Shown here: positions 3,248 to 64,000 of the stretch, one piece after another
Layout of the letters: every line of letters begins with the position of its first letter
Position numbering within the stretch: position 1 is the stretch's first letter
The notes under the pieces: generated by a model
Seen by the model: the letters and a program-made list of their open reading frames with translations, nothing else
What the model was told of the DNA's origin: nothing
Database searches by the model: none
Program-made: the position numbers and the translations under genes
NCBI GenBank assembly: GCA_902790015.1
Contig: CADAQF010000006.1
Coordinates: forward strand, 1-64,000
Reading direction: 5' to 3'
DNA from: an uncultured Eubacteriales bacterium
GTDB lineage: Bacteria; Bacillota; Clostridia; Christensenellales; Aristaeellaceae
Length of the DNA: 64,000 nt

Positions 3248-3308
3248 TATGGCTGCCCGGCGGATGCTCCCGCCGGGTGTAAATGTTTTTAAAAAGGAGT
3301 CTTTTCAT

Positions 3309-4403
3309 ATGATCAGGATCAATGTCATCTCCGGCTTTCTGGGAGCCGGCAAAACCACGCTCATCCGCAAGCTGCTCACCGGCAGCCTGAAGAACGAAAA
3401 GGTCGTGCTGCTGGAAAACGAATACGGCGATATCGGCGTGGACGGCGCTTTTATGAAGGACGCCGGCATCACCGTTACCGAGCTCAACGCCGGCTGCATC
3501 TGCTGCACCCTGGCGGGTGACTTCCAGGCCGCCATCGACCAGCTGATCGACACCTATCAGCCCACCCGCATCTTGGTGGAGCCTACCGGCGTAGGCAAGC
3601 TCAGCGAGATCCTTTCCGCCATCGAAAAGGCCAAACAGCGCCACCCCGATATCGACGTGGGCGGCAGCGCCACCGTGGTGGACGCCGGCAAGTGCCGCAT
3701 GTACGCCAAAAACTTCGGCGAATTCTTCATCGACCAGGTGAAGAGCGCCTCCACCGTGATCTTCAGCCGCACCCAGCTGCTGAGCGCTGAGCGCGTGGAA
3801 AAGAGCATGGCCCTGATCAGGGAGCTCCATCCCGACGCCCGCGTCATCACCACGCCGTGGGACGATATGGAGCCCGATTTCATGCTGGACGTGATCGAAA
3901 ACGGCAAGCCCATCGCCTTCGCCCCGCTGGAAGACGAGGACGAAGATGAGGACGGGCACGAGCATCATCACCATCATCATGAACATGATCATGATCATGA
4001 TGAGGACGAGGATGAGCATGATCACGACCATGACCATCATCACGATCATGATCATGACCACGATGAACACGGGCACGGCCATGAGCATCATCATCACCAT
4101 CATCACCACGACGGCGAGCATGACGCCGACGAGGTGTTCCAGAACATCGGCGTGGAGACGGCCCAGCGCTTTGAGCGCGAGGATATCCGCAATAAGCTCG
4201 AAGCCCTCTCCGACGAAGAGGAGTACGGCCGCGTCCTGCGCGCCAAGGGCATCCTGCAGGATGCCGAAGGCAAATGGTTCCAGTTTGACTTCGTTCCCGG
4301 CGAGATCGACTTCCGCGACAGCGCGCCCGATTATACCGGCCGCTTCTGCGTGATCGGCGCCCACCTGGATGAAAAAGCCCTGAAGGAGCTGTTCAACGTA
4401 TGA
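3309..4403 (+). CDS. CobW/P47K-family GTPase with His/Asp-rich metal-binding loop
   Basis: A COG0523-type GTPase, a family of metal chaperones or insertases (zinc, cobalt, nitrile hydratase iron). Walker A is GFLGAGKTT near residue 9, and the conserved CxCC motif is present as NAGCICCTL at about 59-67. Between roughly residues 210 and 275 is a block of His, Asp and Glu with more than 30 His, a metal-buffering loop as in HypB, UreE and ZigA-like proteins. The C-terminal CobW_C domain follows, with Arg-rich 'GRVLRAKGILQ'. I place the start at 3309, not 3249: AGGAG at 3295-3299 sits 9 bases upstream. The stop overlaps the next CobW gene (ATGA). Which metal is handled is not shown; no Zur or Fur site was recognised. 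Confidence 0.9.
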   Translation: MIRINVISGFLGAGKTTLIRKLLTGSLKNEKVVLLENEYGDIGVDGAFMKDAGITVTELNAGCICCTLAGDFQAAIDQLIDTYQPTRILVEPTGVGKLSEILSAIEKAKQRHPDIDVGGSATVVDAGKCRMYAKNFGEFFIDQVKSASTVIFSRTQLLSAERVEKSMALIRELHPDARVITTPWDDMEPDFMLDVIENGKPIAFAPLEDEDEDEDGHEHHHHHHEHDHDHDEDEDEHDHDHDHHHDHDHDHDEHGHGHEHHHHHHHHDGEHDADEVFQNIGVETAQRFEREDIRNKLEALSDEEEYGRVLRAKGILQDAEGKWFQFDFVPGEIDFRDSAPDYTGRFCVIGAHLDEKALKELFNV

Positions 4404-5353
4404 GCCAGCAGGAATTCGTACCCGTCTATATGCTGACCGGCTTTCTGGAAAGCGGAAAAACCACGATGATACAGTCCATGCTGTCCGACGAGGGCTTTTC
4501 CTCCGGGCAGAGGACGCTGATCATCTGCTGCGAGGAAGGCGAAACCGAATTTGAGGAGGACTTCCTCAAAAAGTACAACGCCGTCCTGGCCGTGATCGAC
4601 GAACAGCAAAAGCTGACCAGCCTCAGGCTCAAGGAGCTCAACGCCAAATACCTGCCCGAGCGGGTCATCATCGAGTACAACAATTTCTGGGGCATCGAGT
4701 ATATCAGCCGCCTGCGCATGCCGCCGCTGTGGGAGTGGGTGCAGGTGATCACCCTGGCCGACGGCTCCACCTTCAACAACTACATGACCAACATGCGCCA
4801 GCCCATGACCGACCCCATGCGGGAGGCCGACCTCATCCTGATCAACCGCTGCGCGCCGGACTTCAACAAGAGCAACTGGCGCCGCCAGCTCAGGGCCATC
4901 AACAACACGGCCACCATCCTGTTTGAAAACCCGGACGGCAGCACGGAGGACGGCGTATCCGACGAGGACCTGCCCTATGACGTGAACGCCCCCGTGGTGC
5001 AGATTTCCGACGAAAACTTCGGCATCTTCTATCTGGATTCCATGGAGCACCCGGAGCGCTACGACAAAAAGACCGTCCATATGATCGGCCAGCCTTTCCC
5101 GCACTCAAAGCTGCCCAAGGGCTTCTATTTCTTCGGCCGCTACGCCATGACCTGCTGCGCCAACGACATCCAGAAGACCGGGTGGGTCTGCAAGGGCCCC
5201 TGCAAGCCCAGCGATACAGGCTATGTGAGCCTTACCGCCCGCTGCGAACACGCGACGGACCCGGAAGGCCGCTCCGTACTGATGCTGCACGAGATCAGCG
5301 CCGACAAGACCGCCGCCCCGCGCGAAAAATACGTGACCTTCGGCACCATCTGA
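4400..5353 (+). CDS. Second CobW/P47K-family GTPase
   Basis: The partner of the preceding CobW gene, translationally coupled through an ATGA overlap. Walker A is GFLESGKTTM near residue 13. The usual CxCC motif after the P-loop is absent; at the corresponding place the sequence is IICCEEGETEFE, an acidic Cys-Cys variant. The C-terminal part carries four more Cys in TCCANDIQKTGWVCKGPC, which could form a second metal site. There is no His-rich loop. At 317 residues it is a normal family length. Paired COG0523 paralogues suggest a chaperone complex or two metal-delivery steps, which is inference. A strong terminator follows directly. Confidence 0.85.
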   Translation: MSQQEFVPVYMLTGFLESGKTTMIQSMLSDEGFSSGQRTLIICCEEGETEFEEDFLKKYNAVLAVIDEQQKLTSLRLKELNAKYLPERVIIEYNNFWGIEYISRLRMPPLWEWVQVITLADGSTFNNYMTNMRQPMTDPMREADLILINRCAPDFNKSNWRRQLRAINNTATILFENPDGSTEDGVSDEDLPYDVNAPVVQISDENFGIFYLDSMEHPERYDKKTVHMIGQPFPHSKLPKGFYFFGRYAMTCCANDIQKTGWVCKGPCKPSDTGYVSLTARCEHATDPEGRSVLMLHEISADKTAAPREKYVTFGTI

Positions 5354-5356
5354 ACG

Positions 5357-5388
5357 AAACGCTCCCCGATGCTTTTCGGGGAGCGTTT
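5357..5388 (+). terminator. Rho-independent terminator after the CobW pair
   Basis: A perfect 13-bp stem AAACGCTCCCCGA (5357-5369) / TCGGGGAGCGTTT (5376-5388) with a 6-nt loop lies just 3 bases past the stop codon. Its right arm ends in TTT; a longer T-run (CTTTTT) comes only at about 5400. Confidence 0.8.
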
Positions 5389-5420
5389 GCTCATCTTCGC
5401 TTTTTGAAAGGAAAACCATC

Positions 5421-6215
5421 ATGCAGGAAATACCGCTGTGGGAAAAGGACATCCCCTTTTATGACGCGGCCGTCGGTCAGCCGGCGCCGTCCCTGATGCT
5501 CTTCCCCGTTTCCCGGCCCAGGGGCATGATCCTCGTGCTGCCCGGCGGGGGCTATACCCACCTGGCCCCGCATGAGGGCGCGCCCATCGCCGAAAGAATG
5601 AACGGCTTTGGCTGGAGCGCCGCCGTGCTGCGCTACAGGCTGGCCCCTTATCAGGCACCCGTGCCTCAGCTGGACGCCCGGCGCGCGATGCGCTTGCTGC
5701 GTTTCCAATCCGCTGCATGGGGCTATGCTCCCGACCGCATCCTGATCATGGGCTTTTCCGCCGGCGCTCACCTGGCCGCCTGCGCCGCCCTGCAGGCCGA
5801 CCGCTGGGCGGGGGATCCTTCCTCCGCCGACCCTGTCGAGCGGCAAAACGCCCGGCCGGACGGGCTTATTTCCTGCTACGGCGTATTGACCATGGGCCCC
5901 TTCGCCCACGCGGGCAGCCGGGACAGTCTTTTGGGAGAAAAAGCCAAAGATCCCGCCCTGCTTGCGGAATACTCGCTGGAGACCCGCGTCACGGAAGATG
6001 CCCCGCCGGCCTTCTTATGGCACACGGCGGAGGACGCCTCCGTCCCGGTAGAAAACTCCCTTGGGCTCGCAGCCTCCCTAAGCGCCCGCCGGGTACCCTT
6101 TGCCCTGCACGTATTTCCCCGGGGCCGGCACGGCCTGGGGCTGGCCGAAAGCACCCCCTGCGCCTGCCGCTGGCCTGAGCTGCTTCATGAGTGGCTTTCG
6201 GATACGTTTGGCTGA
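5421..6215 (+). CDS. Alpha/beta hydrolase (BD-FAE/acetyl esterase-like)
   Basis: A 264-residue serine hydrolase of the alpha/beta fold, likely cytoplasmic since no signal peptide is present. The oxyanion-hole motif is LVLPGGGYTHLA (about 39-48). The nucleophile elbow is GFSAG with Ser113, the acid is probably Asp205 in HTAEDASVPV, and the catalytic His237 sits in GRHGLG. This layout is that of small-molecule carbohydrate esterases (acetyl-xylan esterase or BD-FAE group) found in plant-fibre degraders. It follows the CobW terminator with its own Shine-Dalgarno (GAAAGG), so it is probably a separate unit. The precise ester cannot be told from the sequence. Confidence 0.85.
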   Translation: MQEIPLWEKDIPFYDAAVGQPAPSLMLFPVSRPRGMILVLPGGGYTHLAPHEGAPIAERMNGFGWSAAVLRYRLAPYQAPVPQLDARRAMRLLRFQSAAWGYAPDRILIMGFSAGAHLAACAALQADRWAGDPSSADPVERQNARPDGLISCYGVLTMGPFAHAGSRDSLLGEKAKDPALLAEYSLETRVTEDAPPAFLWHTAEDASVPVENSLGLAASLSARRVPFALHVFPRGRHGLGLAESTPCACRWPELLHEWLSDTFG

Positions 6216-6312
6216 ACCGTCCGGACCAAAGAGCGGCGCGGAGATCATTTCAGATCTTCATATGTCGGCGCTTATGCCGGGAAAACCGTTGTGAGGTTCA
6301 GCGGGCCCGCCT

Positions 6313-8787
6313 TCAGGCAGATCGCTTCCTGCGCTTTAATACCCGGTAGATCACCGGGGTCAGGAACATCACCGCGAAGCCCGCGCCCAGCACGGCGCAC
6401 AGGCCCAGCCAGCCGGTCAGGGGCATCTGGTGAACGGTCAGGAAAAACACATTTTCAAACCGCAATACGCACAAAGCGAAGCCCGCGGTCATCGCTGCCA
6501 GCACGCCTGCGCGCATCCAGGTGAAGGGCCAGCAGATCATGCCCAGCTCGGTAAGACCTATGATGCCCGCGGCCAGCACGGCTACGGTGGAGCAGTTGTT
6601 TTGGCTCAGATCGAAAATTACCAGGGCGGACGCCAGTATGGCGCTGACCGCCACGGCGACGCCTCCGGGCGCCGCTTTTTTGAGCACTGTGCGCAGGAAA
6701 TCCCCCTTCACTCGCTCATGGTTTGCCTCCAGCGCCAGGAAAAACCCGGGTATGCCGATGGTAAGGGAGCTGAGGACGGTCAGCTGAATGGGCTGGAAGG
6801 GATACTGCAGCGGCAGGATCAGAGTCAGCACGCTGAGCAGCGCGGAATAGATGGTCTTTACCAGGAAAAGCGTGGCCGTCCTTCGGACGTTGCCGATGAC
6901 CCGCCGGCCCTCGGCCACGACCTGAGGCAGGGCGCTGAAATCGCCGCTCAAAAGGGACAGCTGCGCCACCTGGCGCACGGCGTCGGTGCCGGTGCCCATG
7001 GCGATGGAACAGTCCGCCGCCTTGAGGGCGGGAATATCGTTCACGCCGTCCCCTGTCATGGCCACGGTGTGGCCCTCGTCCTGCAGGGCATCCACCAGCT
7101 TCCTCTTCTGCTCCGGCGTGACCCGGCCGAACACGCGCGCCTCCCGCACGGCATGGCGCAGGGCGTCGTCATCGGTCAATTGGGAAGCGTCCACATATTT
7201 ATCCGCCCCGGGCATGCCGGCCATGCGGGCGATGTGGGATACCGTTTCCGGGTCGTCCCCGCTGATGACGCGCAGCTGGACGTCCTGCCCGGTAAAATAG
7301 GCCAGGGTGTCCTGCACGTTCGGCCTGAGCTCGTCGGACAGGGAGATCAGCCCCAGCACCCGTTCAACGGGCGGGCATTCCCCGGCGGAGATCGGCCCCC
7401 GCGCCTGGCACAGCACCAGCACCCGGTAGCCCAGGCGTGTCCTGGGCGTTATTTCTCCCTGCCAGGCGGATGCGTCCTCCAGCACGAAGCCCGGCGCGCC
7501 CAGGATCAGCGTGATCCCGTCCGCAAAGGAAGCGGCGGATTTTTTCCGCTTGGAGGAAAAGGGCAGCACCGCGGCGTCCTCCCGGACCTGCGGCTGAACA
7601 AAGGCGCGCAGGGCGTTAAGCGTGGGGCTTTCTTCGTCAAATGCGGAGAGGAAACGGGCAATGTCCCCGCGCAGGGCTTTCTCGTCGGCCTCCAGGGGAA
7701 CGATCTCCTCCACCTTCATCCGTCCGGTGGTCAGCGTGCCCGTCTTGTCCAGGCAGAGCACATCCGCCCGGGCCAGGGACTCTATCCCGAAAAGCTCGGA
7801 TACCAGCGTATCTTTTTTGCCCAGGCGGATGACGCCCACCATCAGCGCCACACTGGTCAGAAGCACCAGCCCCTCCGGGATCATGCCGATCAGCGCGGCG
7901 ACCACGCCGGGCACCGCTTCCTGCGCAGGAATCTTCAGGATAAAGTACTGCTTGGCCATCAGCAGCAGGCCTATCGGCAGGATCATCGCGCTGATGACGC
8001 GGACCAGGCGGTTCAGGTCGCTCATCAGCACGGACTTGGGGGCCTTGATCTTCCGCGCGGTGCTGGTGAGGCGGGCGGCATAGGATTCGTCGCCCACGTA
8101 AACCAGCTGGGCCGTAAAGCGGCCCTCCGTCACGTAGCTGCCGGAAAGGAGCCAGTCCCCTTCTTTTTTCTGTATCGGGTCGCCCTCGCCGGTCAGCAGG
8201 GACTCGTCCGCCGCCCCGGCGCCTTCGCGTATAACCGCGTCCGCCGGCACCTGCTCACCCGGCCTCAGGATGATCAGGTCGTCCCTGACCAGCTGGGCGG
8301 GCGTCACAGTCAGCTCCTTTCCTTCCCTGATGACATGCGCCTGGGGCATATGGAGCAGTTGCAGCTTCTGCACGGTCTTGCGCGCGCGAAGCTCCTGCAC
8401 GGTGCCGATCAGGGTGTTGGAAAACACCACGCCCAAAAAGAGCATGTTGCGGTAGGACCCCACCAGCATCAGGCACACCGCCAGGCCAAAGTTCAGCAGG
8501 TTGAACAGCGTGAACAGGTTTCTGGCAGCGATCTGCAGAGGGCTTCTGCCCGGGTCCTTTTTCATCTCGTTGCTCTTGCCCTGGTGGCGGCGCTTTTCGG
8601 CCTCCTGCGCGGTCAGGCCGCCTTCGGGGGTGGGAGTGAAACGGCGCGGCAGGTCTGTGGGGATGGTCAGCTCTCCCTGCCTGTCCGTCCGCCGTCCATG
8701 CCTTTTTGCGGAAGGCTCCCTGTCCTTTTTTTCGTCCAGCAGACGGTGATATAATCTGCTGAACCAACCTTTGCCGGGCTGTTCCAT
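6313..8787 (-). CDS. Cation-transporting P-type ATPase, CtpE-like
   Basis: An 824-residue P-type ATPase of the inner membrane. Visible are the actuator motif LLTGEGDP (about 198-204; usual TGES has Ser), the membrane motif MIPEGLVLLTS (292 onward), the phosphorylated Asp357 in DKTGTLT, and the hinge TGDGVNDIPALK (588 onward). The PEGL transmembrane-4 motif and overall length match the CtpE group (calcium export or uptake described in actinobacteria) rather than heavy-metal CPx ATPases, which would show Cys-Pro-Cys. The first 70 residues are basic and soluble. The start at 8787 is chosen because AAAGGAG lies 7 bases upstream. It is transcribed divergently from a secreted SH3b protein across a 61-base gap. 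Ion specificity is inferred. Confidence 0.85.
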   Translation of the reverse strand: MEQPGKGWFSRLYHRLLDEKKDREPSAKRHGRRTDRQGELTIPTDLPRRFTPTPEGGLTAQEAEKRRHQGKSNEMKKDPGRSPLQIAARNLFTLFNLLNFGLAVCLMLVGSYRNMLFLGVVFSNTLIGTVQELRARKTVQKLQLLHMPQAHVIREGKELTVTPAQLVRDDLIILRPGEQVPADAVIREGAGAADESLLTGEGDPIQKKEGDWLLSGSYVTEGRFTAQLVYVGDESYAARLTSTARKIKAPKSVLMSDLNRLVRVISAMILPIGLLLMAKQYFILKIPAQEAVPGVVAALIGMIPEGLVLLTSVALMVGVIRLGKKDTLVSELFGIESLARADVLCLDKTGTLTTGRMKVEEIVPLEADEKALRGDIARFLSAFDEESPTLNALRAFVQPQVREDAAVLPFSSKRKKSAASFADGITLILGAPGFVLEDASAWQGEITPRTRLGYRVLVLCQARGPISAGECPPVERVLGLISLSDELRPNVQDTLAYFTGQDVQLRVISGDDPETVSHIARMAGMPGADKYVDASQLTDDDALRHAVREARVFGRVTPEQKRKLVDALQDEGHTVAMTGDGVNDIPALKAADCSIAMGTGTDAVRQVAQLSLLSGDFSALPQVVAEGRRVIGNVRRTATLFLVKTIYSALLSVLTLILPLQYPFQPIQLTVLSSLTIGIPGFFLALEANHERVKGDFLRTVLKKAAPGGVAVAVSAILASALVIFDLSQNNCSTVAVLAAGIIGLTELGMICWPFTWMRAGVLAAMTAGFALCVLRFENVFFLTVHQMPLTGWLGLCAVLGAGFAVMFLTPVIYRVLKRRKRSA

Positions 8788-58898: not shown

Positions 58899-58991
58899 TC
58901 ACCTGTAAGCAAACCGTTCATCTAAACGGATGCTCACGCAATCCGCCGTATCGTACTGCCAGTCTTCATCCCCTTTGAATCCAATGATCAT
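58899..58991 (-). other. Short reading frame overlapping the stop of the giant protein
   Basis: A 30-codon frame begins at an ATG that overlaps the giant gene's stop (ATGA) and encodes MIIGFKGDEDWQYDTADC followed by a charged end. No clear Shine-Dalgarno is present. It could be a tiny coupled peptide, or a C-terminal tail lost to a frameshift. I do not assert that it is a gene. Confidence 0.25.
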
Positions 58992-61900
58992 AGTATCGTT
59001 ATCCCGTCGCAGCCCTCGAACGCTCCTTCGCCTATGCTTGTCACTGTGGAAGGAATAAGTACCGGGCCTGTGAAGCCCGAGCAGCCCCGGAAAGCATATT
59101 CTCCAATGCTTGCCACACCGGCTGATATGGTCAGGCTGCCCGTAAAACCGCTGCAAAACGCGAAAGCATAATCGCCGATGCTCTTTACGCTGGACGGAAT
59201 GATCAGGCTGCCCGTAAACCCGCTGCAGCCATAAAAAGCAGATTCTCCGATGCCTGTTACGCCATCCGCTATGGTCAGCCTGTCCGTAAATCCGGTGTAT
59301 GCAAAAGCACCGGTACCGATGTTCTTTACGCTGGATGGGATCGTTAAGCTGCCCTTAAGCCCGCTGCAGAACGCAAAGGCGAGTTCACCGATACTCGTTA
59401 CGCTGCCCGGAATGGTCAGGCTGCCTGTAAATCCGCCGCAAGAAGCAAAAGCATGTTCGCTGATACGCTTCACACTGGCTGGGAGAATCAGCCGCCCTGT
59501 AAGCCCGGAACAGCCGACAAATGCATATGCCCCGATATCTGTGACCCCATAAGGAATCGTCAATCCGCCCGTAAAACCGCTGCAGTCTGAAAAAGCATAA
59601 GCTTCGATGTTTTTCACGCCGGACGGAATAACCAGGCTGCCCGTAAATCCGCTGCAGTAATTAAATGCATATGCTTCGATGCTCGTCACGCTTTCCGGTA
59701 TACATAATTCTCCCGTAAAGCCGCTGCAGCCGTCAAATGCATGTTCTCCGATGCTCGTCACGCTGTCAGGGATCACCAGTATGCCGGTCAGTCCGCTGCA
59801 ATTTCTGAAAGCAGAAGCTCCTATACGTGTCACCCGTTTGCCGTTGATCGTCCCCGGTATCACGATATTGGCCGCGTCGGCCGGCCCGATATACTTGTCT
59901 ATACTCACGGTACCGTTTGCCGTTGCAGACCATTCGAAGACCGAAGCCGGCATCAGCGCTGACACTTCGCAGCAGCCCTCGAAGGCGCTTTCCCCGATGC
60001 TCGTCACGCTTTCATCCATGATTATGATACCCGTAAAGCCGCTGCAGTTATAGAAGGCACTATCTCCGATGCTCCTCACGCTTTCCGGAATGGTCAAAAT
60101 ACCCGTGAAACCGCTGCAGTATGCGAAAGCACCTTCCGCTATACTCGTCACGCTGTTCGGGATGTTCAGGCTCCCTGTGAAGCCGCTGCACCAAAGGAAA
60201 GCACCAAGCCCTATGCTCGTCACACCCTCCGAAATGGAAAGATTACCCGTAAAGCCTGTGCAGAATGCGAAAGCATACTCCCCTATGCTCTTCACGCTGG
60301 ATGGTATGATCAGGCTGCCCGTAAAGCCACCCCCAGCGGCGCACTGATACTCAATGCTCGTCCCGCCGTAAGAAAAGTCGGTCATAAAGAGCGCTATACC
60401 GCCGCAGCCAAAGAAAGCATCATCCCCGATACTCGTCAAACCGTTCGGAAGGATCAGGCCGCCCGTAAGACCGCTGCAATCCATGAACGAATAATTGCCA
60501 ATGCTTCGCACGCCGGACGGTATTATCAGGTTACCCGTAAAGCCATGGCAGCCAAAGAAAGCAAAGTCCGCTATGACCGTCACGCCGGACGGGATATTCA
60601 GCCCGCCTGTAAGCCCGCCGCACCGGGCAAATGCGTATTGTCCGATGCTCGTCACGCTTTCAGGTATCACCAAAACACCGGTCAGTCCGCTGCAGTCCTT
60701 GAAAGCTGAAGCCCCGATGGCCGTTACCCGTTTGCCGTTTATCGTGTCCGGGATGATGATATTGTTCGCGTCCTCGGGCCCGATATATTTGTCTATACAG
60801 ATCGTTCCGTTCGCTATTACGGACCACTCGAAATTCGAAACCGGCGTAGTATCCGAATAGTCCACTTTGATAAACGTCAATCCGTTGCAACCTTCAAAGG
60901 CAGCCGCCCCAATGTTAGTCAGACTGGCGGGAAGATAGCAATTTCCCACTAAGCCGGAACATTTCGCGAAAGCGTAATCGCCAATACTCGTAAGGTTGGA
61001 AGAAAGAATTAAGTTGCCTGAAAACCTGCTGCACCAATAGAATGCATAGTTCCCAATGCTCGTCACGCTGTTCGGGATGATCAGGTTGCCAGTAAAACTG
61101 TGGCAGTTTTCAAAAGCTCCTTCTCCAATGCTCGTCACGCTGTCCGGGATAATCAGGTTGCCAGTAAAACCGTAGCAGTAAAAGAAAGCATCACTCCCAA
61201 TGCTCGTCACGCCGTTCGGGATGATCAGGCTGCCAGTAAAACTGTGACAGTTTTCAAAAGCTCCTTCCCCAATGCTCGTCACGCTGTTCGGGATGATCAG
61301 GCTCCCCGTGAACCCGCTGCAACCACCGAAAGCCCAATCTCCTATGCTCGTAACGCTGTCCGGGATGCTCAGGCTCCCTGTGAAACCGCTGCAGTCAGAG
61401 AAAGCATAATTCCCTATGCTCGTAACGCTGTCCGGGATGCTCAGGCTCCCGGTGAAACCGCTGCAGCCAGAGAAAACAGAACTCTCTATGCTCGTCACGC
61501 TGTCCGGGATGATCAGGCTCCCGGTGAAACCGCTGCAGTTACCGAAAGCATGATTCCTTATGCTCGTCACGCTGTTCGGGATGTTCAGGCTCCCGGTAAA
61601 GCCGCTGCATTCAGCGAAAGCACTGTTCCCAATGCTCGTCACGCTGTTCGGGATGATCAGGCTTCCTGTAAATCCACTGCAGTATTCAAAAGCCCCTTCT
61701 CCAATGCTCTTCACGCTATTTGGGATGATCAGGCTACCCGTCAACCCGATGCAGGATTCGAAAGCATATTCTCCAATGCTCGTCACGCTGTCCGGGATGT
61801 TCAGGCTCCCCGTGAACCCGCTGCAGCCAGTGAAAGCCCAAGTTCCTATGCTCGTCACACTATTCGGAATGATCAGGCAACCCGTGAACCCGATGCAGCC

Positions 61901-64000
61901 TTCGAAAGCCGCTTCTCCTATGCTCGTCACGCCGTCCGGGATGATCAGGCTCCCAGTAATTTCGCTGCGCCATGCTAAAGCATATTCTCCAATTTCTGTA
62001 ACCCGTCTTCCGTTAATCATCCTTGGAATGACGACATTAACCGCATCTTTTGGCCCAATGTATGCATCAATACGCACTGTCCCGTCATTCTTTACAGACC
62101 ATTCGAAATACGTATTCGGCATGGCCTGAACGTATTCCACCCATACCGTGTTGCTGTACCACGTTCCGTTGTCGTCGGTCACGCGAAGGCGGTAATGGTT
62201 TTTCAGCAGCGCTTCCGTCGCCGTCAGCTTCATGTTCGGCGTCGTTGCTCCGCTTTGTGTCGCGTTCTTCCATCCGGTCTGCCCGTCGGCGCTCATCTGC
62301 CACTGATACTGCGGCGTTCCCGCCGTACCGCTGATTTCAGCGCTGAAATGCACTTCCTGATTCAGCTGGGCGGCATCAACGTCAGCTGACGCCACGATTA
62401 ACGGCTGATCCATCCAGGTGACCTTCACGGCATTGGAATACCACTTGCCGTTGTCGTCCGTCACCTGCAGGCAGTAATACAGATCGATGGCTTCTCTGGA
62501 ACCAACTATGGTCATCTCTGTGGTATCACTGCCGCTTTGGGCGGAGGGCTGCCAATAGTTTTCCCCGTCGTAGCTTTCCAGCCACTGATATACCACAGTA
62601 CCAACAGCCCCGGTAACCATGGCAGCGTATTTTACCACCGTGCCCTTGCTCGCCGTCTGCTGGCTGGTCGTTACAGTGATTGTCGGGGGTACCACAAACC
62701 TGACCTTGACGGCATTCGAATACCAGGTGCCGTTATCATCGGTCACCTTCAAACGGTAATAGTATTTAAGAAGCTCCTCTGATGCAATCAACTCCAGGCT
62801 GGACGTTGCGGCACTACTGTCAGCTAAATCCTTCCATCCGGTTTTTCCGTCAACGCTCCGCTGCCACTGATATTGCGGTAAGCCCGTTGTCCCGGTAACC
62901 TCTGCGCTGAAACGTACCGCCTGATCCGGCACAGCCATTTCAGTGTCTGCCGAAGCCGTAACCGTTGGAGCGTCCTTCCAGGTGACCTTCACGGCATTGG
63001 AATACCAAACACCGTTATCATCGGTCACGCGCAGGCGATAATACCAGCCGAGCAGCTCCTCCGTTGCAACCAGCTTCATATTCAGCGTAGCAGCCCCGCT
63101 CTGTGAAGAACCTTTCCAGCCCGTCTTTCCATCTGCGCTCTTTTGCCACTGGTACTGCGGCTCACCCGCTGTACCGCTAATTTCCGCGGTAAAATGCACT
63201 TCCTGTTTTTCCGTGGCAAATTCGACATCCGCTTTTGCCGTGATCGTCGGCGGGTCCATCCAGGCGATCTTTATAGGCTCCGAATACCATGCACCGTTCT
63301 CATCCGTCACCTGCAGCCGGTAATACAGGTCGATCAGTTCCCTGGTAGCCTTGATGGTCATCACCAGGGTCTTGTTGCCGCTCTGGGCGGAATTTTCCCA
63401 CTCGGTCTCCCCGTCGGCGCTCTTCTGCCACTGGTAGGTCACGTTGCCTTCGGTACCGGTCACCGCAGCGATGTACTGCACCTTCGTGCCCTCGCTGGCC
63501 GTCTGCTGGCTGGTCTCCACGGTGATCGTCGGAGGTATCACAAACTTGACCTTAACAGCATTGGAATACCAGGTGCCGTTATCGTCCGTCACCTTCAGGC
63601 GGTAATAGTATTGAAGCGCCGCTTCCGTCGCGGTAAACGTCATAACAGGCGTATCGGCACCGGTCAGCGTCGCGTTTTTCCACCCAGTCTCCCCATCGGC
63701 GCTCCGCTGCCACTGATACCGCGGCTCACCGGCGGTACCTTTCACCTCGGCTTCAAAGCGCACCTCCTGATCCGGTATGGCCATTTCGGCGTCCGCCGCC
63801 GCCGTGATCGTCGGCGGGTCCATCCACATGACCTTCACCGGTTCCGAATACCATACGCCGTTGTCATCCGTAACCTTCAGGCGGTAATACAGGTCGATCA
63901 GGGCCTGGGTGGCCTTGATGGTCATCATCGTGGTCTTGTTGCCGCTTTGGGCGGAGTTCGACCAGTCGTTCTCCCCGTCCGCGCTCTTCTGCCACTGATA
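58988..64000 (-). CDS. Giant surface protein: Ig-like super-repeats plus BspA-type LRRs (5' truncated)
   Basis: The reading frame is open from the right edge (64000) to the TGA at 58988, at least 1670 residues; the start lies outside the window. From 64000 to 62126 there is one partial and six full Ig-like domains of exactly 94 residues, with the core YQWQKSADGxTxW and YYRLKVTDDNGxWYSNAVKV. From about 62125 to the end there are roughly 40 leucine-rich repeats of 23 residues (GSLIIPNSVTSIGxxAFxxC, LRR_5/BspA type). These form three blocks, each opened by a cap with FEWS and IDxYIGPxDAxNxxIP. Such proteins are secreted adhesins or ligand-binding proteins of gut and mucosal bacteria. The C-terminus ends in repeats with no sortase motif or other anchor, so any attachment signal must be N-terminal. 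Confidence is high for architecture, low for ligand. Confidence 0.92.
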   Translation of the reverse strand, partial: YQWQKSADGENDWSNSAQSGNKTTMMTIKATQALIDLYYRLKVTDDNGVWYSEPVKVMWMDPPTITAAADAEMAIPDQEVRFEAEVKGTAGEPRYQWQRSADGETGWKNATLTGADTPVMTFTATEAALQYYYRLKVTDDNGTWYSNAVKVKFVIPPTITVETSQQTASEGTKVQYIAAVTGTEGNVTYQWQKSADGETEWENSAQSGNKTLVMTIKATRELIDLYYRLQVTDENGAWYSEPIKIAWMDPPTITAKADVEFATEKQEVHFTAEISGTAGEPQYQWQKSADGKTGWKGSSQSGAATLNMKLVATEELLGWYYRLRVTDDNGVWYSNAVKVTWKDAPTVTASADTEMAVPDQAVRFSAEVTGTTGLPQYQWQRSVDGKTGWKDLADSSAATSSLELIASEELLKYYYRLKVTDDNGTWYSNAVKVRFVVPPTITVTTSQQTASKGTVVKYAAMVTGAVGTVVYQWLESYDGENYWQPSAQSGSDTTEMTIVGSREAIDLYYCLQVTDDNGKWYSNAVKVTWMDQPLIVASADVDAAQLNQEVHFSAEISGTAGTPQYQWQMSADGQTGWKNATQSGATTPNMKLTATEALLKNHYRLRVTDDNGTWYSNTVWVEYVQAMPNTYFEWSVKNDGTVRIDAYIGPKDAVNVVIPRMINGRRVTEIGEYALAWRSEITGSLIIPDGVTSIGEAAFEGCIGFTGCLIIPNSVTSIGTWAFTGCSGFTGSLNIPDSVTSIGEYAFESCIGLTGSLIIPNSVKSIGEGAFEYCSGFTGSLIIPNSVTSIGNSAFAECSGFTGSLNIPNSVTSIRNHAFGNCSGFTGSLIIPDSVTSIESSVFSGCSGFTGSLSIPDSVTSIGNYAFSDCSGFTGSLSIPDSVTSIGDWAFGGCSGFTGSLIIPNSVTSIGEGAFENCHSFTGSLIIPNGVTSIGSDAFFYCYGFTGNLIIPDSVTSIGEGAFENCHSFTGNLIIPNSVTSIGNYAFYWCSRFSGNLILSSNLTSIGDYAFAKCSGLVGNCYLPASLTNIGAAAFEGCNGLTFIKVDYSDTTPVSNFEWSVIANGTICIDKYIGPEDANNIIIPDTINGKRVTAIGASAFKDCSGLTGVLVIPESVTSIGQYAFARCGGLTGGLNIPSGVTVIADFAFFGCHGFTGNLIIPSGVRSIGNYSFMDCSGLTGGLILPNGLTSIGDDAFFGCGGIALFMTDFSYGGTSIEYQCAAGGGFTGSLIIPSSVKSIGEYAFAFCTGFTGNLSISEGVTSIGLGAFLWCSGFTGSLNIPNSVTSIAEGAFAYCSGFTGILTIPESVRSIGDSAFYNCSGFTGIIIMDESVTSIGESAFEGCCEVSALMPASVFEWSATANGTVSIDKYIGPADAANIVIPGTINGKRVTRIGASAFRNCSGLTGILVIPDSVTSIGEHAFDGCSGFTGELCIPESVTSIEAYAFNYCSGFTGSLVIPSGVKNIEAYAFSDCSGFTGGLTIPYGVTDIGAYAFVGCSGLTGRLILPASVKRISEHAFASCGGFTGSLTIPGSVTSIGELAFAFCSGLKGSLTIPSSVKNIGTGAFAYTGFTDRLTIADGVTGIGESAFYGCSGFTGSLIIPSSVKSIGDYAFAFCSGFTGSLTISAGVASIGEYAFRGCSGFTGPVLIPSTVTSIGEGAFEGCDGITIL
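60980..61960 (-). repeat. Tandem 69-bp leucine-rich repeat array, highly conserved part
   Basis: The plus-strand phrase ATGCTCGTCACGCTGT recurs about every 69 bases (for example near 61132, 61201 and 61270), one copy per 23-residue repeat. Neighbouring copies are nearly identical in DNA, unlike the more diverged copies nearer the 3' end of the gene, suggesting recent duplication or gene conversion. Confidence 0.8.
62126..63817 (-). repeat. Two tandem 846-bp super-repeats of three Ig-like domains
   Basis: Six 282-bp units read A-B-C-A-B-C (63817-62972 and 62971-62126). A units share DAEMA(I/V)PDQ-like starts, B units share TSQQTAS(E/K)GT, and C units share the ADV...QEVHF(T/S)AEISGTAG stretch. 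The partial unit at the right edge resembles a B unit. Confidence 0.85.

Follow-up and report, generated by a model that had tools for sequence, protein, structure and literature searches.

The window analyzed here comprises 64,000 bases and corresponds to the first part of a 66,971-base contig (C6). Its right-hand end is occupied by the open reading frame of a giant protein on the minus strand (58988..64000 within the window), which is open at the right edge and continues to the contig end, yielding 2,660 residues with the start codon not reached. From the N to the C terminus, the layout comprises about 100 proline- and glutamate-rich residues, four older Ig-like units, twelve further Ig-like units (U1 to U12), and a BspA-type LRR region that ends at the stop codon. 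This last region, preceded by a short linker, spans 58988..62122 on the minus strand and consists of 24-residue repeats encoded by 72-bp tandem arrays. Pfam LRR_5 matches it with E=7.1e-195, and the model scores 637.3 bits across eight stretches of the giant protein (cut-off 27.7). Elsewhere in the window, positions 3249-4403 of the plus strand encode a CobW-family protein, probably a metal chaperone, with a very long loop rich in His, Asp, and Glu that short tandem DNA repeats encode. Among marker-gene matches in the genome, YloV scores above its cut-off, and FakA and SpoVD score below theirs, which points tentatively to a Gram-positive, Firmicutes-like bacterium.

The Ig-like array is read on the minus strand and its units fall into two classes, X and Y, assigned from identities and trees. 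U12 (62123..62404, class Y) is the final unit ahead of the LRR region, followed at increasing coordinates by U11 (62405..62686, X), U10 (62687..62968, Y), U9 (62969..63250, Y), U8 (63251..63532, X), and U7 (63533..63814, Y). U6 (63815..64000, X) is truncated by the window edge, with the full unit ending at contig position 64096. U5 to U1, the four older units, and the proline/glutamate-rich stretch occupy the remainder up to contig end 66971. Sixteen Ig-like units therefore stand in one row, as in the stalk of repeats of a fibrillar adhesin. The original prediction described the segment 62126-64000 as units of exactly 94 residues arranged A-B-C-A-B-C, with a B-like unit at the edge and an array continuing to the right. 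Six units (U12 to U7, 62123-63814) are indeed complete, each exactly 94 residues long, and the edge truncates a seventh. The edge unit belongs to the B class (X, U6), and reading beyond position 64000 extends the array to twelve units. The unit length is not invariant: it is 94 residues in 11 of the 12 units and 86 in U4, which lies outside the window. The suggestion that exact length reflects selection for periodic geometry along a fiber is likewise dispensable, since one unit deviates and the spacing between QW motifs, mostly 93-94 residues in the paralogs on contigs C32, C40, and C34, ranges from 91 to 114 between single neighbors in C2. In the first of the four older units, whose QW stands at residue 136 when the 2,660-residue frame is numbered from its start, nine residues (AAEAYDDL plus H or Q) are duplicated in tandem. 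This unit is correspondingly longer, with 106 residues to the next QW, and the matching units of C9 and C3 lack the duplication.

The units are predicted to adopt an Ig fold. The window part of the protein matches Ig_3 with 54.9 bits (cut-off 30), and a PKD model, K319L-like_PKD, also matches this part (46.4 against 27). AlphaFold2 models an X-Y pair as a tandem Ig sandwich with a mean pLDDT of 96.2 and a pTM of 0.77. The four-domain X-Y-Y-X segment is modeled as tandem Ig sandwiches as well, with a mean pLDDT of 93.9 and a pTM of 0.61, a value that leaves the inter-domain angles uncertain. In a structure search with the X-Y model, 898 of 1000 aligned chains reached a Z score of at least 8, and Ig proteins ranked at the top. 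CD22 superposes on this model with Z 12.3 over 172 residues (rmsd 7.8), and domains Ig1-4 of Robo1 superpose on the X-Y-Y-X model with Z 14.5 over 335 residues (rmsd 9.9). The canonical intradomain disulfide, common in the Ig fold and not required for it, is missing from the array: across the 12 units (1,120 residues) there are 4 cysteines.

Export of the giant protein is suggested by its paralogs. Those on C40, C9, C3, and C32 begin with a hydrophobic, signal-like segment followed by the motif FTVGPDGRVY, which has five exact DNA matches in the genome. Three LPXTG-like patterns found no match in the giant-protein frame, which starts at the contig end without its true N terminus. A looser pattern gave one match, LIPST at residue 2638, located inside the LRR region. 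The final 54 bases of C6 (66918-66971) are identical to a stretch of contig C32, at the locus L012:6662-7213. In C32, the frame with the signal-like N terminus and FTVGPDGRVY reaches the end of this shared stretch and then departs from the usual protein sequence, and the Ig/LRR gene of that contig lies in a different frame. This arrangement could represent either a chimeric assembly at a repeat or a real frameshift in the C32 gene.

The complete order of the 12 units, from N to C terminus, is XYXYYXYXYYXY, with X comprising U1, U3, U6, U8, and U11, and Y comprising U2, U4, U5, U7, U9, U10, and U12. Units of class X share on average 66% of their core DNA and units of class Y 68%, compared with 54% for pairs that cross the classes. 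The proposed grouping into A, B, and C is partly retained. B (U8, U11, and the edge unit U6) corresponds to X and is sharply distinct, whereas A (U9, U12) and C (U7, U10) both belong to Y and are inseparable by DNA (A-A 67.4%, C-C 68.9%, A-C 62.2-67.8%). A protein tree of 33 units separates them weakly, placing U9 with U12 (support 89/63) and U2, U4, U5, U7, and U10 as another group (93/90).

Two protein trees, each based on 93-94 columns, place the classes in a broader context. In a tree of 68 units, for which the bootstrap had not settled, the X clade (14 units) received 98/90 and the Y clade (18 units, including two from another genome, G007) received 98/94. This set retained units of at least 60 bits with at least three quarters of profile coverage, which left out the four older units and, in other genomes, many weakly scoring ones. 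The 33-unit tree was restricted to the genome's own X and Y units plus three units from C2, dropping 35 of the 68, including the two G007 members of the Y clade. It separates X from Y with 95/96 and rejects a single clade of all 12 units (AU p=0.0005). The three C2 units belong to neither class, and two of them fall on the X side. The seven Y units of this gene group together (77/79), and a clade formed by its five X units is not rejected (p=0.106); some expansion within the gene is thus possible inside each class.

Both clades span contigs C6, C32, C40, C9, C2, and C59. As both classes recur in the paralogs of this genome, the split between X and Y is older than the gene itself. Of 14 X units, 11 have a Y directly after them. 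Genes whose stalk is tipped by an LRR region carry zero, one, three, or five X-Y pairs: C3 has four older units and no X or Y ahead of the LRR, C9 has four older units and a single XY, in C32 a single older unit precedes XYXYXY, and C6 is the gene described here. A rule by which the neighbor of a unit sets its final residues fits this gene and was rejected when all 14 listed X units were compared, as 13 of them carry the ending W[MV][DEA]P whatever follows, which makes it a mark of X itself. The exception, U11, ends in WMDQ. Ig stalks in the genome also carry other cargo. On C2 (L016:1029-11381) they accompany peptidase M23, BACON, fn3, and amidase domains, and on C19 (L019:6117-9140) a caspase-like domain, where other paralogs have an LRR.

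At a threshold of E up to 1e-20, a profile of the X-Y pair finds matches in 14 of 308 family genomes, the genome of origin included. With ten candidates scored per genome, its own ten matches range from 311.8 to 341.7 bits, and the next best genome reaches 161.5. Single units have matches in 57 of 200 family genomes (own included). At the DNA level, the region matches three of eight genomes of the genus, own included, and the other two contain short pieces only. A scan of named genomes returned only distant Ig arrays at seven loci, with best-segment identities of 23-34%. Among the matches listed by a literature search, no publication addressed the gene or an X/Y array of this kind.

The internal copies are old. 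Every same-class pair has a dS of at least 0.55, and many values lie near saturation and therefore set no order for the duplications. The closest pair of all, U6 and U8, is separated by two units (lag 2) and shares 81% of its DNA (dS 0.55). For comparison, the four-unit block ahead of U1 differs from the paralogs C9, C3, and C33b by dS 0.62-0.76, the C33b stretch having been trimmed to a different first residue than the others. Most internal copies are therefore roughly coeval with the paralogs or predate them. In contrast, three units of contig C34 in the same genome are 89-92% identical in DNA, with dS 0.37-0.46 and dN 0.02-0.04. These neighboring Ig units (L017, residues 532, 626, and 720 of frame 3467-6469) constitute a single-unit array under strong constraint. 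These values make C34 more promising as a candidate variable-length stalk than the array of the window.

How the array grew was assessed through identities at fixed distances between units. The strict period of three expected from A-B-C is broken at the edge, where B stands in place of A, and again by the units beyond. Given the full order of classes, the three-unit rhythm of the window is a local feature. Lag-3 DNA identity falls to 51% for U1-U4, 60% for U5-U8, and 57% for U6-U9, against 66-74% for the other six lag-3 pairs. Compared with all orders, lag 3 yields p=0.067 for the six complete units of the window and p=0.127 once the whole of U6 is added. With random orders of the 12 units as a control, lag 3 (p=0.04) and lag 5 stand out; with classes held fixed, lag 3 retains p=0.06. 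The array contains two Y|Y seams, U4|U5 and U9|U10 (the latter reading WKDA|P), which imply duplication of blocks that start and end with Y (Y-X-Y). Single-Y duplication is disfavored as their source, as identity at the seams is below random.

Class-fixed permutation covered seven sets of pairs in four data cuts; the p values given here are uncorrected across these 28 tests. Two Y-X-Y duplications fit protein identities best (0.654 against 0.616, p=0.009) and are weaker on DNA (p about 0.07). The predicted three-domain duplication may accordingly be kept in this altered form. Six of the 12 units find their best protein match three units away (p=0.03), but the DNA counts are one of 12 for whole units (p 1.0) and three of 12 for cores (p 0.39). 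A two-domain register, on the other hand, performs best on DNA (p 0.012-0.016) and less well on protein (0.11-0.16). A three-domain block probably contributed to the array in the past, while its standing as the last or a recent event lacks support. Across 11 X-Y pairs, a Mantel test gave r about 0.25 with p 0.07-0.10 (0.57-0.79 within the gene). This lack of a clear shared history between X and Y partners argues against clean co-duplication of X-Y pairs and makes later exchange between same-class units likely. Domain repeats often expand by several domains per event, frequently in the middle of the array, according to a survey (PMC1553488). For Ig domains, the survey regards growth by single domains as the most probable route, whereas single-domain duplication is disfavored at the seams of this array.

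Other histories were considered. Duplication of a five-domain block, X-Y-X-Y-Y (1410 bp), would generate the order as XYXYY XYXYY XY. Over lags 1 to 10, mean DNA identity peaks at lag 5 (68.4%, with all seven pairs at 65% or above), which also departs from random order on cores (p=0.003). The Y|Y seams resemble each other, reading WKAA and WKDA, and the second-best place in the genome for the DNA of the predicted segment lies five units away (69%). Yet the lag-5 signal disappears once the order of classes is fixed (p=0.35; 0.24-0.63 for the five-pair set), and we consider this history unlikely.

An explanation based on selection proposes that neighbors must differ so that tandem Ig domains avoid misfolding into each other. 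In titin, neighbor divergence has been proposed to suppress long-lived misfolds (PMC4660218). No X-X adjacency occurs in the three arrays with more than one X, against 3.19 expected (joint p=0.008). Adjacent units of the 12-unit array average 46.4% identity, below the 51.4% of random orders (p=0.045), and the six X/Y units of C32 show the same tendency (p=0.067). However, the pattern is absent from other arrays (p=0.14 for all seven C32 units, 0.26 for C40, 0.62 for C2, 0.58 for C19, and 0.90 for C34), and C34 neighbors are up to 92-96% identical. Since plain two-domain duplication also produces alternation without selection, and the alternation tests were chosen after the order had been seen, selection on order is treated as a rival of low probability and not as a conclusion. 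A stronger version appears still more doubtful. Here, X and Y would form a matched pair in which X never tolerates an X neighbor, and selection would keep the heterotypic order while each class is swapped and homogenized independently, in line with the absence of a clear shared history of X and Y partners. If true, alternation between two domain types would be how this bacterium makes its long stalks, the reverse of the Periscope stalks with their identical repeats.

The originally predicted recent unequal crossing-over, in which one three-domain block (846 bp, U7-U9 into U10-U12) was duplicated last, is the least credible history: self-alignment at offset 846 does score 755 bits over 2,278 columns, and U10 and U12 find their best protein matches three units away in U7 and U9, but the three pairs have dS of 1.83, 0.97, and 1.91, the best self-alignment is that at offset 1410 (773 bits), identity among the three longest-scoring ones is highest at offset 564 (73%), the closest pair overall lies at lag 2, and the block alone is not significant (p 0.05-0.31).

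The array is best explained, and with reasonable probability, as the stalk, built from two old domain types by block duplications, of an adhesin-like protein that is secreted and probably exposed at the cell surface. A rod of tandem I-set-like Ig domains would form the stalk and keep the large BspA-type LRR domain at the C terminus at a distance from the cell. Its 12-unit part consists of the domain types X and Y and probably grew internally through tandem duplication of two- and three-domain blocks, with Y-X-Y blocks producing the two Y|Y seams. Same-class units were probably homogenized afterwards, in patches, by recombination. The analysis shows the unit boundaries, the two classes and their presence in paralogs, the divergence of the copies, and the predicted Ig fold, and from these the block history, recombination, export, rod geometry, and adhesive role are inferred. 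The stalk role is assigned by virtue of the architecture and its likeness to known fibrillar adhesins (PMC9210967). The protein is of an ordinary surface kind with a diverged array, and the useful part is the X/Y series among its paralogs. Together with the homogenized array of C34, the series of X-Y pairs in C3, C9, C32, and C6 offers a natural set for asking whether neighbor divergence guards tandem Ig domains against misfolding.

Known systems share individual features with this protein. The long BspA-type LRR region is shared with BspA-type LRR proteins and HupY/LrrG adhesins (Pfam LRR_5, NCBIfam NF047961), although here a long Ig stalk stands N-terminal to it. On the portion of the protein encoded in the window, NF047961 scores 258.4 against a cut-off of 1250, and the giant protein is therefore not assigned to HupY/LrrG. 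Grappling hook protein A (GhpA) of Aureispira (9fls, 9flx, and others) is likewise a bacterial protein with tandem Ig-like domains, and chain 9fls_A superposes on the four-domain model with Z 13.9 over 321 residues (rmsd 4.6). It belongs to a different organism and shares 16% identity over the aligned part, and such similarity in fold does not demonstrate a shared function. Bacterial stalk proteins are best known for near-identical repeats that vary in number. The Periscope Proteins (PMC8201768) are bacterial surface proteins that, as proposed here, display a functional region at the end of a long stalk made of folded domains in tandem. Their repeats are near-identical and variable in number, with adjacent SHIRT domains, for example, 82-100% identical in protein. 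Highly identical DNA repeats of the Periscope type were not found among the 12 units, where every pair other than U6-U8 shares at most 75%. In protein, unlike in those stalks, neighbors in this array are 34-62% identical, with eight of 11 pairs below 50%.
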